DNA of 45,817 nucleotides from a virus. Location: positions 1-45,817 of the IMG/VR virus record IMGVR_UViG_3300036832_000526, one strand, 5' to 3'. Both the position numbers and the translations under genes were made by a program. This document shows, piece by piece, positions 13,979 to 17,065 of the stretch. Every line of letters begins with the position of its first letter. The first letter of the stretch is position 1. Below the pieces are notes generated by a model, which saw nothing but the letters and a program-made list of their open reading frames with translations, was not told the origin of the DNA and did no database searches.

Positions 13979-14097
13979 CTTGGCTGAGCTTGCCACCTCT
14001 GAGGGTCCGGTGGGTTCTGCCTTGGGGTCCGACGAGGGGCGCACCAACAACGCACCCTCGTCGGATGACCGCCAGTGAGGAATGCAATGACAACTGA
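13975..14097 (+). CDS. Possible 40-residue protein, weak
   Basis: ATG 13975 overlaps the previous stop (ATGA) and opens a 40-residue frame, MTWLSLPPLRVRWVLPWGPT and onward, ending ECNDN. It has no recognisable feature and is rich in Pro, Arg and Trp, as shadow frames often are. Support is limited to the ATGA coupling and to its filling the gap before the Xis-like gene. Confidence 0.25.
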   Translation: MTWLSLPPLRVRWVLPWGPTRGAPTTHPRRMTASEECNDN

Positions 14098-14311
14098 CCA
14101 AGCACTCGGTGGTGCGTACACAATCAAAGAGTTCTGCAGAGCGCACCGCATCTCGGAGGGGCTGTACTACAAAATGCAAAACGCGGGCGAAGGCCCGCGC
14201 GTAATGGAGGTCGGCACCAGACGGCTGATCTCGCAGGAGGCTGCGGCTGCGTGGCGGCGAGCCCGGGAAAGCTCGCCGCCCACCGTGCCGTCAGGCGGCG
14301 ATGTCGGGTAG
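14087..14311 (+). CDS. AlpA/Xis-like HTH protein, candidate excisionase
   Basis: Encodes 74 residues from ATG 14087 with GAGG upstream. The helix-turn-helix (YTIKEFCRAHRISEGLYYKM) and wing (GPRVMEVGTRRLISQEAAAA) are typical of small AlpA-like or excisionase proteins: the motif pattern YTI-EFC-AHRIS---YY---GxGPRVM-VGxR-LIS matches proteins I know beside alphaproteobacterial integrases. It ends tail to tail with the integrase gene, overlapping by 21 bases, so the pair probably controls integration and excision. Candidate binding repeats lie in the attP region at 15646-15717. Confidence 0.75.
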   Translation: MTTDQALGGAYTIKEFCRAHRISEGLYYKMQNAGEGPRVMEVGTRRLISQEAAAAWRRARESSPPTVPSGGDVG

Positions 14312-15559
14312 CGAATTGCGCAGCAGATCGTCAGCGTGATCGGTGATGTGGACGCTGTAGTTTTTCTCGATCATCGCAACACTGGTGTCGTGGCTGGCAG
14401 CGACAATGCGCGTCGGCACACTCCGCAGGAGCCGGTTCACAATCGAGGTGTGGCGGAATGCGTAGATTGTGATGCCGCGCCCGGCGCAGCCCGCAGCCTT
14501 CACCGCACGCCGGAACGGGCGGCTGTGATCTGACTTGCCCCACGGCTCGCCGCTCGCCTTCACCAGCAACCGCTCAGTCGGCTTGCGGTCTGCAGCCGCC
14601 GTCACGAGCGCACGGTAGAGTTTGGCCGAGATCGGCGTGGCGATATGCGTGACCTTCTTTTTGCCCCTGCCCTTGCGCGACACCGGCATCATCAGGAGCG
14701 GCCGGTTATCACCGCCCTGCAGATTTGCGATCAGGAGGTTAGCCGCTTGAGAGATCGGGCGTGCGCCGCTCTCGGCGCAAACGTGGGCCAGAAGGCCGAT
14801 GTCGTTACCCTCGACGTAGCAGCAGTCGACAATGGCACTCACGTCATTGGGGTCGTCGATGATGACGTTGCGCGCCTTGTTGCTATCCTCGATGGTGCCA
14901 AGGCCGACCTCCCACTGGTGCCGGTTGAGGCCATCGTCGGAGAGGTCAGCGGTGCGGTTGAGCGCCGCCTTGAGCGTGGCGCAAAGGCGATTGATGGTCG
15001 CAGGCGAGAGCGGTTCTACACCTTTGATCTCCTCAGCCTTGCCCTTCATGTAGCGACCGCGCGCTGACTGCTCGTCGCGCCATTTGCGCCAGTCGGTTTT
15101 CTTCACCAGCTTGATCGCCGTAGCGAGGAAGGCGGCGGTCATCGACTTGCGGATGCGGACCACCTCGCCAGTGCCTTTGCCAGCCCGCCTGAGATCGGCC
15201 TCATAGCCTTCGAGCGACTGCTTCACCGTAGTCAGGTTGCCAGAGGGTGGGCCGCTGCTGGGGCCGCTCTCGTCGCCGCTCGCCAGCTTGCGCGCACGCG
15301 CGGTGGCTTGGTCGTAGGTGAAGATCGTGTCGTTGTTGGCGTCCTGATAGTCATCGGCGCGGCCGATGGCGCGGTGCGTGTTCGACTGCTTGCCGTCAGC
15401 AACCCGCAGCACCCATGCGCCGTCAACCTGCGCTTTCGGTTTGCGGTAGCCGAGACTGAGGCCCTGCCCGATGCGAACAAAGTACGGCTTGCGGCGCGCG
15501 TCGAGCTGCAGGCGCTGCGTGCGTGTTTCGATTTCTGATGAGCGGATTTTGCGTGCCAT
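14291..15559 (-). CDS. int: Tyrosine-type phage integrase
   Basis: Encodes 422 residues. The catalytic domain shows Arg267 in CAESGARPISQ, Lys candidates near 296-302 (RKGRGKKK), the box II arginine in YAFRHTSI (Arg369), His390 in AASHDTS and the nucleophile Tyr401 in EKNYSVH. The usual HxxR histidine of box II is Tyr366 here. The N-terminal 100 residues form a DUF4102-like or arm-binding region, followed by a SAM-like core-binding domain at about 110-205. It inserts the phage at a tRNA-Glu site (see attP). The ATG at 15559 lies four bases from the first of a set of arm-type repeats, so the protein may repress its own gene. Confidence 0.9.
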   Translation of the reverse strand: MARKIRSSEIETRTQRLQLDARRKPYFVRIGQGLSLGYRKPKAQVDGAWVLRVADGKQSNTHRAIGRADDYQDANNDTIFTYDQATARARKLASGDESGPSSGPPSGNLTTVKQSLEGYEADLRRAGKGTGEVVRIRKSMTAAFLATAIKLVKKTDWRKWRDEQSARGRYMKGKAEEIKGVEPLSPATINRLCATLKAALNRTADLSDDGLNRHQWEVGLGTIEDSNKARNVIIDDPNDVSAIVDCCYVEGNDIGLLAHVCAESGARPISQAANLLIANLQGGDNRPLLMMPVSRKGRGKKKVTHIATPISAKLYRALVTAAADRKPTERLLVKASGEPWGKSDHSRPFRRAVKAAGCAGRGITIYAFRHTSIVNRLLRSVPTRIVAASHDTSVAMIEKNYSVHITDHADDLLRNSLPDIAA

Positions 15560-15563
15560 GTTG

Positions 15564-15605
15564 GTGTCCCGTTGTGTCCCGTTTGGTGTCCCGTTGTGTC
15601 CCGTT
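15564..15605. repeat. Integrase arm-type sites, left arm (four copies)
   Basis: Four copies of GTGTCCCGTT at 15564-15573, 15574-15583, 15586-15595 and 15596-15605. They form two abutting pairs separated by two bases. Two more copies lie on the far side of the tRNA-derived core (15815-15835). Repeats placed on both sides of an attP core and next to int are what arm-type integrase sites look like. Confidence 0.75.
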
Positions 15606-15645
15606 CGTGTGTGAAAAGTGCTCTGCTAGTTCGGTTAAGTCGCAT

Positions 15646-15717
15646 GCAGTGAAAGTTCAAGAAGCCTCACTGCCCCAATTGTTTGTGTGAAGTTCTGTGT
15701 GCACGCAGTGAAGTTCA
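15646..15717. repeat. Repeats in attP, possible Xis or accessory sites
   Basis: GCAGTGAAAGTTCA (15646-15659), GTGTGAAGTTCT (15685-15696) and GCAGTGAAGTTCA (15705-15717) share the core GTGAA(A)GTTC and lie between the left arm sites and the core. They could bind the Xis-like protein or a host bending factor. Inference from position and similarity only. Confidence 0.45.
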
Positions 15718-15735
15718 CAAACACGTCAGCAAACA

Positions 15736-15779
15736 CTTTCACGGCGGTAACAGGGGTTCGAATCCCCTAGGGCGCGCCA
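15736..15779 (+). other. attP core: 3' half of a tRNA-Glu(UUC) gene
   Basis: From the anticodon loop CTTTCAC (15736-15742, anticodon TTC at 15738-15740) the sequence continues GGCGG (anticodon stem 3' side), a variable loop, the T arm AGGGG-TTCGAAT-CCCCT (15752-15768), the acceptor strand AGGGCGC, discriminator G and CCA (15777-15779). This matches the 3' half of bacterial tRNA-Glu, including E. coli's as I remember it. Upstream of the loop the expected stem CCGCC is absent, so this is a fragment and not a working tRNA. Integration into a host tRNA-Glu gene would rebuild an intact tRNA. Confidence 0.85.
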
Positions 15780-15814
15780 GCAAAATAAGGGGTTTCTTGC
15801 ATTTCGTCAATCCA

Positions 15815-15835
15815 GTGTCCCGTTTGTGTCCCGTT
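15815..15835. repeat. Integrase arm-type sites, right arm (two copies)
   Basis: GTGTCCCGTT at 15815-15824 and 15826-15835, one base apart and in the same orientation as the four left-arm copies. They lie 36 bases past the CCA of the tRNA fragment and complete the arm-core-arm layout of an attP. Confidence 0.75.
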
Positions 15836-15865: not shown

Positions 15866-15891
15866 AAACCCCGGCATCACTGCCGGGGTTT
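15866..15891 (-). terminator. Intrinsic terminator for the reverse-strand gene at 15914
   Basis: Stem AAACCCCGGCA (15866-15876) and TGCCGGGGTTT (15881-15891) with a TCAC loop, extended by more A residues to 15863. On the - strand the hairpin is followed by six U. It lies 22 bases beyond the stop of the 15914-16288 gene and insulates attP from that transcript. Confidence 0.85.
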
Positions 15892-15913: not shown

Positions 15914-16288
15914 TCAGCGCCCGCGCGCCTCCAGCTTCTCGCAGACCTCGTGCGCGCCCTTGAGCGCGTCCTCAAGGCTCGCGCCGTAGTCGCAGATCAC
16001 CTCCCAGCTATCGTTGCCGTACACGAAGCGCACGAAGCTGTTTTTGCAGCCCTCCTTGAACGTGTAGAGGTAGTCCTCGTCGGTGGTCATCAGCGCGTCG
16101 ACGATCTGCTTGAATTTCGTCGACTTGATCACGGTCTCTTCCTCGCCGTCGAACACGCTAAGCGAGTAGCCCGCCGCCAGCAGGTCACGCACCACCCGGC
16201 GCGCCACGCGCTTCTCGCCTGCGATGCGCTTGCGGTTGGCGGCGATCTCCCGGGCGCGTTCCGGGGTCATTTCGTTCGATAACTGCAT
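15914..16288 (-). CDS. 124-residue protein of unknown function, divergent from serine recombinase
   Basis: Encodes 124 residues from ATG 16288 with AGGAAGGA upstream. The N-terminus is a very basic helix (ERAREIAANRKRIAGEKRVA, RRVVRDLLAAG), followed by an alternating region (YSLSVFDGEEETVIKSTKFK) and a C-terminal mixed region (LYTFKEGCKNSFVRFVYGND). I recognise it only as a small hypothetical protein type in alphaproteobacterial mobile elements. It has its own consensus promoter with an operator in the spacer and its own terminator, so it is a one-gene unit expressed separately from the phage operons. This resembles a lysogenic-conversion or moron gene, which is inference. Confidence 0.65.
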   Translation of the reverse strand: MQLSNEMTPERAREIAANRKRIAGEKRVARRVVRDLLAAGYSLSVFDGEEETVIKSTKFKQIVDALMTTDEDYLYTFKEGCKNSFVRFVYGNDSWEVICDYGASLEDALKGAHEVCEKLEARGR

Positions 16289-16313
16289 AATGGGTCCTTC
16301 CTGTTGATGCCGG

Positions 16314-16343
16314 AATATAGGGGCCATTGGCCGGGGGTGTCAA
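16314..16343 (-). promoter_or_regulatory. Consensus promoter for the 15914-16288 gene
   Basis: On the - strand TTGACA (16343-16338) and TATATT (16319-16314) are 18 bases apart, a near-perfect sigma-70 promoter. One GGCCATTGGCC operator (16322-16332) lies inside the spacer. Confidence 0.8.
16322..16332. promoter_or_regulatory. Operator copy 1, GGCCA-T-TGGCC
   Basis: Perfect inverted repeat with five-base arms around one base, placed between the -10 and -35 boxes of the reverse promoter. A protein bound here would block RNA polymerase. Same motif as the copies at 16355, 16377, 17570 and 18042. Confidence 0.7.
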
Positions 16344-16354
16344 TATGGAACCTC

Positions 16355-16367
16355 GGGCCAATGGCCC
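16355..16367. promoter_or_regulatory. Operator copy 2, GGGCCAATGGCCC
   Basis: Six-base arms around a central A. It ends at the base before the -35 hexamer of the serine recombinase promoter (16368). Its centre is 22 bases from copy 3, about two helical turns. Confidence 0.7.
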
Positions 16368-16396
16368 TTGCGGCCGGGGCCAATGGCCCGTATATT
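16368..16396 (+). promoter_or_regulatory. Promoter of the serine recombinase operon
   Basis: TTGCGG (16368-16373), 17 bases, TATATT (16391-16396). It is divergent from the promoter at 16314-16343. Operator copy 3 fills the spacer and copy 2 abuts the -35 box. Confidence 0.75.
16377..16389. promoter_or_regulatory. Operator copy 3, GGGCCAATGGCCC
   Basis: Identical to copy 2 and located between the -35 and -10 boxes of the serine recombinase promoter, the classic position for steric repression. Confidence 0.7.
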
Positions 16397-16423: not shown

Positions 16424-17065
16424 ATGAGATCGCTGATTGCCTACTACCGCGTATCTACCCAGCAGCAAGGCCGCTCCGGCCTTGGGCTCGACGCGCAGCG
16501 CGCCGCCATCGCGGCCTTTGCTGCGGCCGAAGGCCTGCAGATCGCTGGCGAGTTCACCGAGATCGAGACCGGCAAAGGTGCCGACGCGCTCGACCGCCGC
16601 CCGCAGCTCGCTGCCGCGCTCAAGGCGGCAAAGAAGGCGAAGGCTGCGGTGTGCGTGGCCAAGCTGGACCGTTTGTCACGCGACGTCGCCTTCATCGCCA
16701 CGCTGATGGTGCAGAAGGTGCCGTTCATTGTGGCGGCTCTCGGCCGGGACGCCGACCCGTTCATGCTGCACATCTACGCGGCGTTGGCTGAGCAGGAGCG
16801 CCGCATGATCTCAGAGCGCACCAAGGCGGGCCTCGCGCAGGCCAAGCGCCGGGGTGTGCGGCTGGGCAACAGCAAACAGGCCGAGATCAATGCCGATGCA
16901 GCACAGGCATTCGCTGAAGCACTGCGCCCCGAGATCGAGCCAATCCGCAATCTGTCGGCCACGCGCATCGCGCACATCCTCAACGACCGCAAGATCGCCA
17001 CGCCGACCGGCGCGCGCTGGTCAGCCAAGACCGTCATCCGCGTACAAGAAAGGCTCGCAGCATGA
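16424..17065 (+). CDS. Serine recombinase (resolvase/invertase family)
   Basis: Encodes 213 residues from ATG 16424. The N-terminal catalytic domain has [20 protein letters not shown] with nucleophile Ser11 and Arg9, then the KLDRLSRD motif (Asp82, Arg83, Arg86) and the linker helix region [20 protein letters not shown]. The C-terminal part ([32 protein letters not shown]) is the small HTH found in resolvase-type enzymes of alphaproteobacterial elements. It is much shorter than large serine integrases. Substrate sites are not obvious; the palindromes upstream are more likely operators. Roles could include multimer resolution, inversion or regulation of its own region. Confidence 0.9.

Follow-up and report, generated by a model that had tools for sequence, protein, structure and literature searches.

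A very probable lambda-type phage attachment site with a predicted tRNA-Glu(UUC) anticodon-loop target, and its most likely host genus, Pseudolabrys

Lambda Int is a heterobivalent tyrosine integrase that recognizes arm-type and core-type sites, and the sites of lambda Xis lie in the P arm. In tRNA-dependent lysogeny of the Fionnbharth type, a short core does not rebuild the target tRNA, and the phage encodes a tRNA itself. In the Islander work, the 'A' subsite denotes the integration site in the anticodon loop (PMC4383910). Integrators that use this subsite carry a 30-45 bp core equivalent to the tRNA 3' half, by which the tRNA is rebuilt (PMC4383910; PMC10865867). In ICEKp1 and ICEclc, transcription from a promoter at the far end of the element passes through the joined attP and enters int, in the circular form only (PMC13023037).

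The window, which is the whole stretch of DNA analysed (45,817 nucleotides of an IMG/VR virus record), contains a candidate attachment site (Table 1). This site very probably (roughly 0.93) represents the attP of a temperate tailed phage with a lambda-type tyrosine integrase, which targets the anticodon loop of a tRNA-Glu(UUC) gene and rebuilds the tRNA. In the proposed mechanism, the N-terminal domain of Int would bind paired GTGTCCCGTT sites on both arms, its other domains would bind the core, and the strands would be exchanged within the 7 bp that form the anticodon loop in the tRNA-Glu(UUC) gene of the host. The segment from tRNA position 32 to CCA would come from the phage, so that an intact tRNA is rebuilt at attL, and the displaced host tRNA 3' half would end up at attR beside int. 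The convergent HTH protein is probably the excisionase and would act at the inner repeats.

Table 1. Features of the predicted attachment region and its neighbours, in window coordinates
Feature	Position	Strand	Remarks
Small HTH protein, candidate excisionase (RDF)	14087..14311	+	convergent with int; homologues beside int in 13 relatives
int, tyrosine integrase, 422 aa	14291..15559	-	arm-binding (putative, residues 26-93), core-binding and catalytic domains; ATG at 15557-15559
P arm, four arm-type sites GTGTCCCGTT	15564..15605	+	15564, 15574, 15586, 15596; duplicated pair
Conserved 16-nt block CGTGTGTGAAAAGTGC in P arm	15606..15621	+	identical in L002
Inner repeats GTGAA(A)GTTC x3, candidate Xis sites	15649..15716	+	between P arm and core; GTGAAAGTTC at 15649-15658, GTGAAGTTC at 15687-15695 and 15708-15716
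attP core, tRNA-Glu(UUC) 3' half, position 32 to CCA	15736..15779	+	identical to intact Pseudolabrys tRNA-Glu(ttc) genes
Predicted 7-bp strand-exchange (overlap) region CTTTCAC	15736..15742	+	left edge of attP/attB identity; anticodon 15738-15740
Candidate int promoter TTGACG-17-TATTTT	15782..15810	-	P' side, reads across core into int
P' arm, two arm-type sites GTGTCCCGTT	15815..15835	+	15815, 15826; pair kept in L002 and at L027 attL
Terminator-like hairpin AAACCCCGGCA/TGCCGGGGTTT closing attP region	15866..15891		similar hairpin at same place in L002
Small serine resolvase/invertase-type gene, 213 aa	16424..17065	+	P' side; Pfam Resolvase 8.9e-28

The six copies of GTGTCCCGTT are exact, and their 4+2 arrangement around the core is precisely that given by the sequence-only reading. 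No further exact copy occurs within the 45.8 kb window. In a dinucleotide-Markov control of 30 windows, no 10-mer exceeded 3 copies per 300 bp, so the six exact repeats are far above chance. The four P-arm copies form a perfect 22-bp duplication of one pair. The P arm of L002, a separate IMG/VR contig whose integrase is 62% identical, has a single pair, and the quartet of the window looks like the result of a 22-bp pair duplication. L002 has an arm pair beside int, a tRNA-Glu core at a similar distance, a second arm pair and a hairpin, and its arm-type sites thus flank the core in a 2+2 arrangement. The block CGTGTGTGAAAAGTGC, which adjoins the P-arm sites, is fully kept in L002, but the DNA beyond it is not. 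The inner repeats, which had also been placed correctly, are recognisable in L002 in two of three cases: GTGGAGTT versions of the last two, with a common G-for-A change, lie at aligned positions. By analogy with lambda, these repeats are plausible Xis sites. A T-stem pair of the core is G-C in the window and C-G in L002, both sides having changed, in keeping with the pairing in a tRNA. Such a change would fit phages that each copy their own host's tRNA. The L002 core was found in none of 248 genomes of the host family. A broader search for the integrase among viral contigs gave no relative closer than L002, and the INPHARED phages contained no match to the integrase at the protein level. In another IMG/VR phage (L112, 2217-2439), pairs of GTGTCCCGTTTGTGTCCCG separated by 204 bp lie close to the 3' half of a tRNA-Arg gene. 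The stretch of L112 examined has no match to the window integrase, and the arm motif is shared with a different system.

The int start codon is four bases from the first GTGTCCCGTT, as the sequence-only reading had observed. Its further proposal, that integrase binding may shut off the int promoter, is weakened because the candidate promoter lies beyond the core at a distance of about 220 nt, which makes autorepression by arm-bound Int less direct. Within 341 nt of the int strand, nothing else matches a promoter at 8/12 or better; no such match lies at the P-arm sites on that strand. L002 has TTGACG-17-TATTTC at the same place. Arm-bound Int might act as a roadblock or occlude the ribosome-binding site. 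If the candidate promoter is real, its position on the P' side means that integration separates it from int. A tentative scheme, which we hold to be less probable than not, is that integration severs the promoter and so forms a repressor-free switch by which int is expressed from the circular phage only; in addition, the convergent early operon would give rise to int antisense transcripts, by which the excisionase would gain over the integrase in the lytic cycle. If true, such an integration-severed int promoter, known for ICEs, would have a clean phage example here.

The four GTGTCCCGTT copies directly upstream of the int start codon, together with the autorepression already proposed, might suggest that the repeats are operators for an int repressor and not arm sites of the integrase. 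However, two copies lie beyond the core in the arrangement of P'-arm sites, the same sites recur in L002 and at the attL of a Pseudolabrys metagenome-assembled genome (MAG), and the strongest promoter match lies elsewhere than at the P-arm copies. A purely operator function is therefore very improbable, and the operator and arm-site roles are not exclusive.

The integrase matches Pfam PF00589 (Phage_integrase) weakly but the PHROG 1 integrase clearly (1.9e-14), and a profile of its 14-member family retrieves lambda Int, XerA and several transposon and phage Int structures from the PDB. The catalytic residues are R267, R369, H390 and Y401, of which all except H390 are invariant in the 14-member alignment. 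H390 is present at the expected place, and the histidine of the HxxR motif is a tyrosine here. With a lysine near residue 296 that is less certain than the others, the sequence appears to contain the R, K, R, H and Y residues of a tyrosine recombinase catalytic domain. An AlphaFold model of moderate confidence (mean pLDDT 70) consists of an N-terminal domain, core-binding helices and a catalytic domain. At its N-terminus, strands in residues 26-68 and a helix in residues 82-93 precede the core-binding helices (block pLDDT 55-84), and this block is a putative arm-binding domain in the model. The neighbouring HTH ORF has a homologue in L002 (76%). Its orientation relative to int and the recurrence of its homologues near int (Table 1) provide good circumstantial evidence that it encodes the excisionase, and its weak HTH_17 match fits such a role.

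The 44-base core is an exact copy of the tRNA-Glu(UUC) gene from position 32 to CCA according to ARAGORN annotation of bacterial genomes, and the earlier assignment of these bases, from the anticodon loop to CCA, is exact to the base. Rfam searches of the att region gave sub-threshold matches only and none to tRNA, as expected because the core is half a gene. The core begins with tRNA position 32, where the anticodon loop (CTTTCAC) starts, and contiguous attP/attB identity is absent to the left of this base. The host site forms a perfect dyad, ACCGCC-CTTTCAC-GGCGGT, and the identity between attP and attB extends leftwards to the edge of the loop and no further. By the rules for tyrosine recombinases, the dyad and this edge together predict that the loop is the overlap region. 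Carrying a tRNA 3' half that starts at the anticodon loop, the attP has the sequence expected of an anticodon-loop integrator.

A collection of 84,980 genomes contains the exact core in only 21 stretches, nearly all of them from Pseudolabrys or unclassified Hyphomicrobiales MAGs, and most of these stretches are intact tRNA-Glu(ttc) genes according to ARAGORN. Among 391 genomes sampled from the family, the core is present in 20 of the 43 assigned to the genus of Pseudolabrys sp. Root1462 but in none of the 348 others. The tRNA-Glu(UUC) attB predicted by the sequence-only reading was thus recovered in genes of candidate hosts, and these matches narrow the host, which is most likely a Pseudolabrys or a bacterium very closely related to this genus.

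A search for integrase relatives next to tRNA-Glu(UUC), which had been suggested as a check, revealed occupied sites of both types. Relatives were found via a DNA scan with the core followed by a protein search of the genomes of the host family; a protein scan of genome contigs with two close integrase sequences found no relative. In L027, a short contig of a Pseudolabrys MAG, an intact tRNA-Glu is followed by GTGTCCCGTTaGTGTCCCGG from about 36 nt after CCA and then by phage genes. At this distance from CCA the window has its P' arm, and the paired arm sites are the same. By these sequence features, L027 is an attL, and the integrase that formed it had the arm specificities of the window integrase; its own integrase is absent from the contig. 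Four other loci (L007, L010, L011 and L029) have an integrase relative (28-36% identical), then the core without a tRNA 5' half and then host DNA, and are attR-type junctions. Their right flanks are about 73-83% identical to the empty tRNA-Glu loci L012, L013 and L023. The L027 attL and these four junctions indicate that related elements integrate at tRNA-Glu and rebuild the gene. The relatives integrated at exactly the same tRNA-Glu gene are only 28-36% identical, and no integrated copy, either of the window phage or of any relative above 62%, was found in the genomes searched. The MAG that contains L027 (G001) has a second core copy, L020, with different arm sequences, and the two probably represent different elements at one tRNA-Glu gene. 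L020 was considered as the attR partner of L027 and dropped, because its P-arm side has no GTGTCC repeats; it is probably that of another element.

Such junctions raise the question of whether the 44-mer in the window itself belongs to the attR junction of a prophage or to a host flank, with bacterial DNA beyond the core, since L007, L011 and L029 do show the core followed by host DNA. However, the P'-arm pair and the hairpin beyond the core are common to phage L002, phage structural genes run far beyond the core, and the host flanks of the attR loci look different. The window encodes RecT, a RecE-like exonuclease, a primase, a helicase, a portal protein, a large terminase, a major head protein and tail fibres. 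Because phage genes flank the site on both sides, it is an attP and not a junction; the common P' arm and these genes already refute the junction reading, to which we attach very little probability.

On the P' side, the serine resolvase gene is conserved in L002 (66% identical) on the same side of attP (L002 2361-2987). It may be asked whether the site belongs to this resolvase and the tyrosine integrase is a remnant. However, the protein has the size of a small resolvase/invertase, arm repeats combined with half a tRNA typify tyrosine integrases, and many tyrosine integrase relatives keep the spacing from int to the site with no resolvase homologue in the stretch examined. It is highly unlikely that the site serves the resolvase. 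The attP reading does not depend on this gene, which might function, for example, in dimer resolution or inversion. Between the divergent ORFs at 15914-16327 and 16424-17065, several GGCCAATGGCC-type palindromes (16323-16390) have an operator-like appearance and overlap a strong promoter match, TTGACA-18-TATATT, on the minus strand (16343-16314). Finally, a tRNA-dependent lysogeny, in which the host tRNA is lost on integration and replaced by one from the phage, as the tRNA target of the integrase could allow, has a negligible probability, because the core is a complete 3' half identical to that of the host, from which the tRNA is rebuilt, and the window has no phage tRNA gene.

The wider integrase family keeps one attP architecture while changing its target. 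Relatives at E<=1e-10 are present in 64 of 391 family genomes. Many distant relatives (25-30% identical) have a tRNA-Glu(UUC) or tRNA-Glu(CUC) 3' half 160-190 nt from the start codon. When the tRNA identities are judged by eye from the anticodon loops, tRNA-Glu 3' halves lie beside L044, L052, L054-L059, L061 and L062, and a few relatives are at tRNA-Arg (L033, L053) or tRNA-Thr (L049, L050) 3' halves. About 20 of 35 distant relatives have a pair of tandem arm repeats that is reached by at most 5% of shuffles, so the arm-repeat trend is real, but at this sensitivity it does not extend to all relatives. In another branch (L034-L039, L041-L043, L045-L047 and L051, from genomes G331, G330, G336, G383 and G251), relatives about 33-41% identical in Bradyrhizobium-size genomes have half of a dispersed REP-like palindrome at the core position and no tRNA. 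TCTCCCCTTGTGGGAGAAGGTGGC has 18-78 copies per genome in four of these five genomes, and GCGCAGGGAAGGCCGG has 25-94 copies. Candidates for the other ends are short repeats (12-17 bp) that reappear at a distance of 12-44 kb downstream. These sequences suggest a switch of target from tRNA stem-loops to dispersed palindromes, and target choice, as read from them, is not fixed across the whole family. A point against the attP reading of the window is that integrases of about 40% identity have other targets, tRNA-Arg and REP-like repeats.

The analysis gives a host genus for an uncultivated environmental phage from sequence alone and defines a matching integrase, attP and attB in soil Hyphomicrobiales of a group on which the literature searched contains essentially no prophage work. 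The mechanism is classic, and the case is ordinary though well supported; the phage and the host genus are new. As in phage lambda, arm repeats flank the core, int is next to attP with a small HTH gene as its neighbour, the integrase appears to have three domains, and direct repeats lie between the P arm and the core, where lambda has its Xis sites. Unlike in lambda, the target is a tRNA gene, only 4 nt separate the arm repeats from the start codon of int, the reading direction of int is away from attP, and the xis candidate is convergent with int; no IHF site was identified in the window attP in this comparison. The candidate promoter beyond attP, here a sequence match only, resembles the arrangement in ICEKp1 and ICEclc. 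However, the tRNA promoter drives int in ICEKp1, whereas the window phage would rebuild the tRNA at the end opposite int, so that the tRNA promoter could not drive int in the lysogen. The locus also differs from the Fionnbharth type, since it has a 44-nt core identical to the host sequence and no tRNA gene. It is most like the Islander and mycobacteriophage anticodon-loop integrators, with which it shares a tRNA 3'-half core, a predicted crossover in the anticodon loop and a rebuilt tRNA; compared with these, it adds a new phage and a new host genus, with no mechanistic difference seen.
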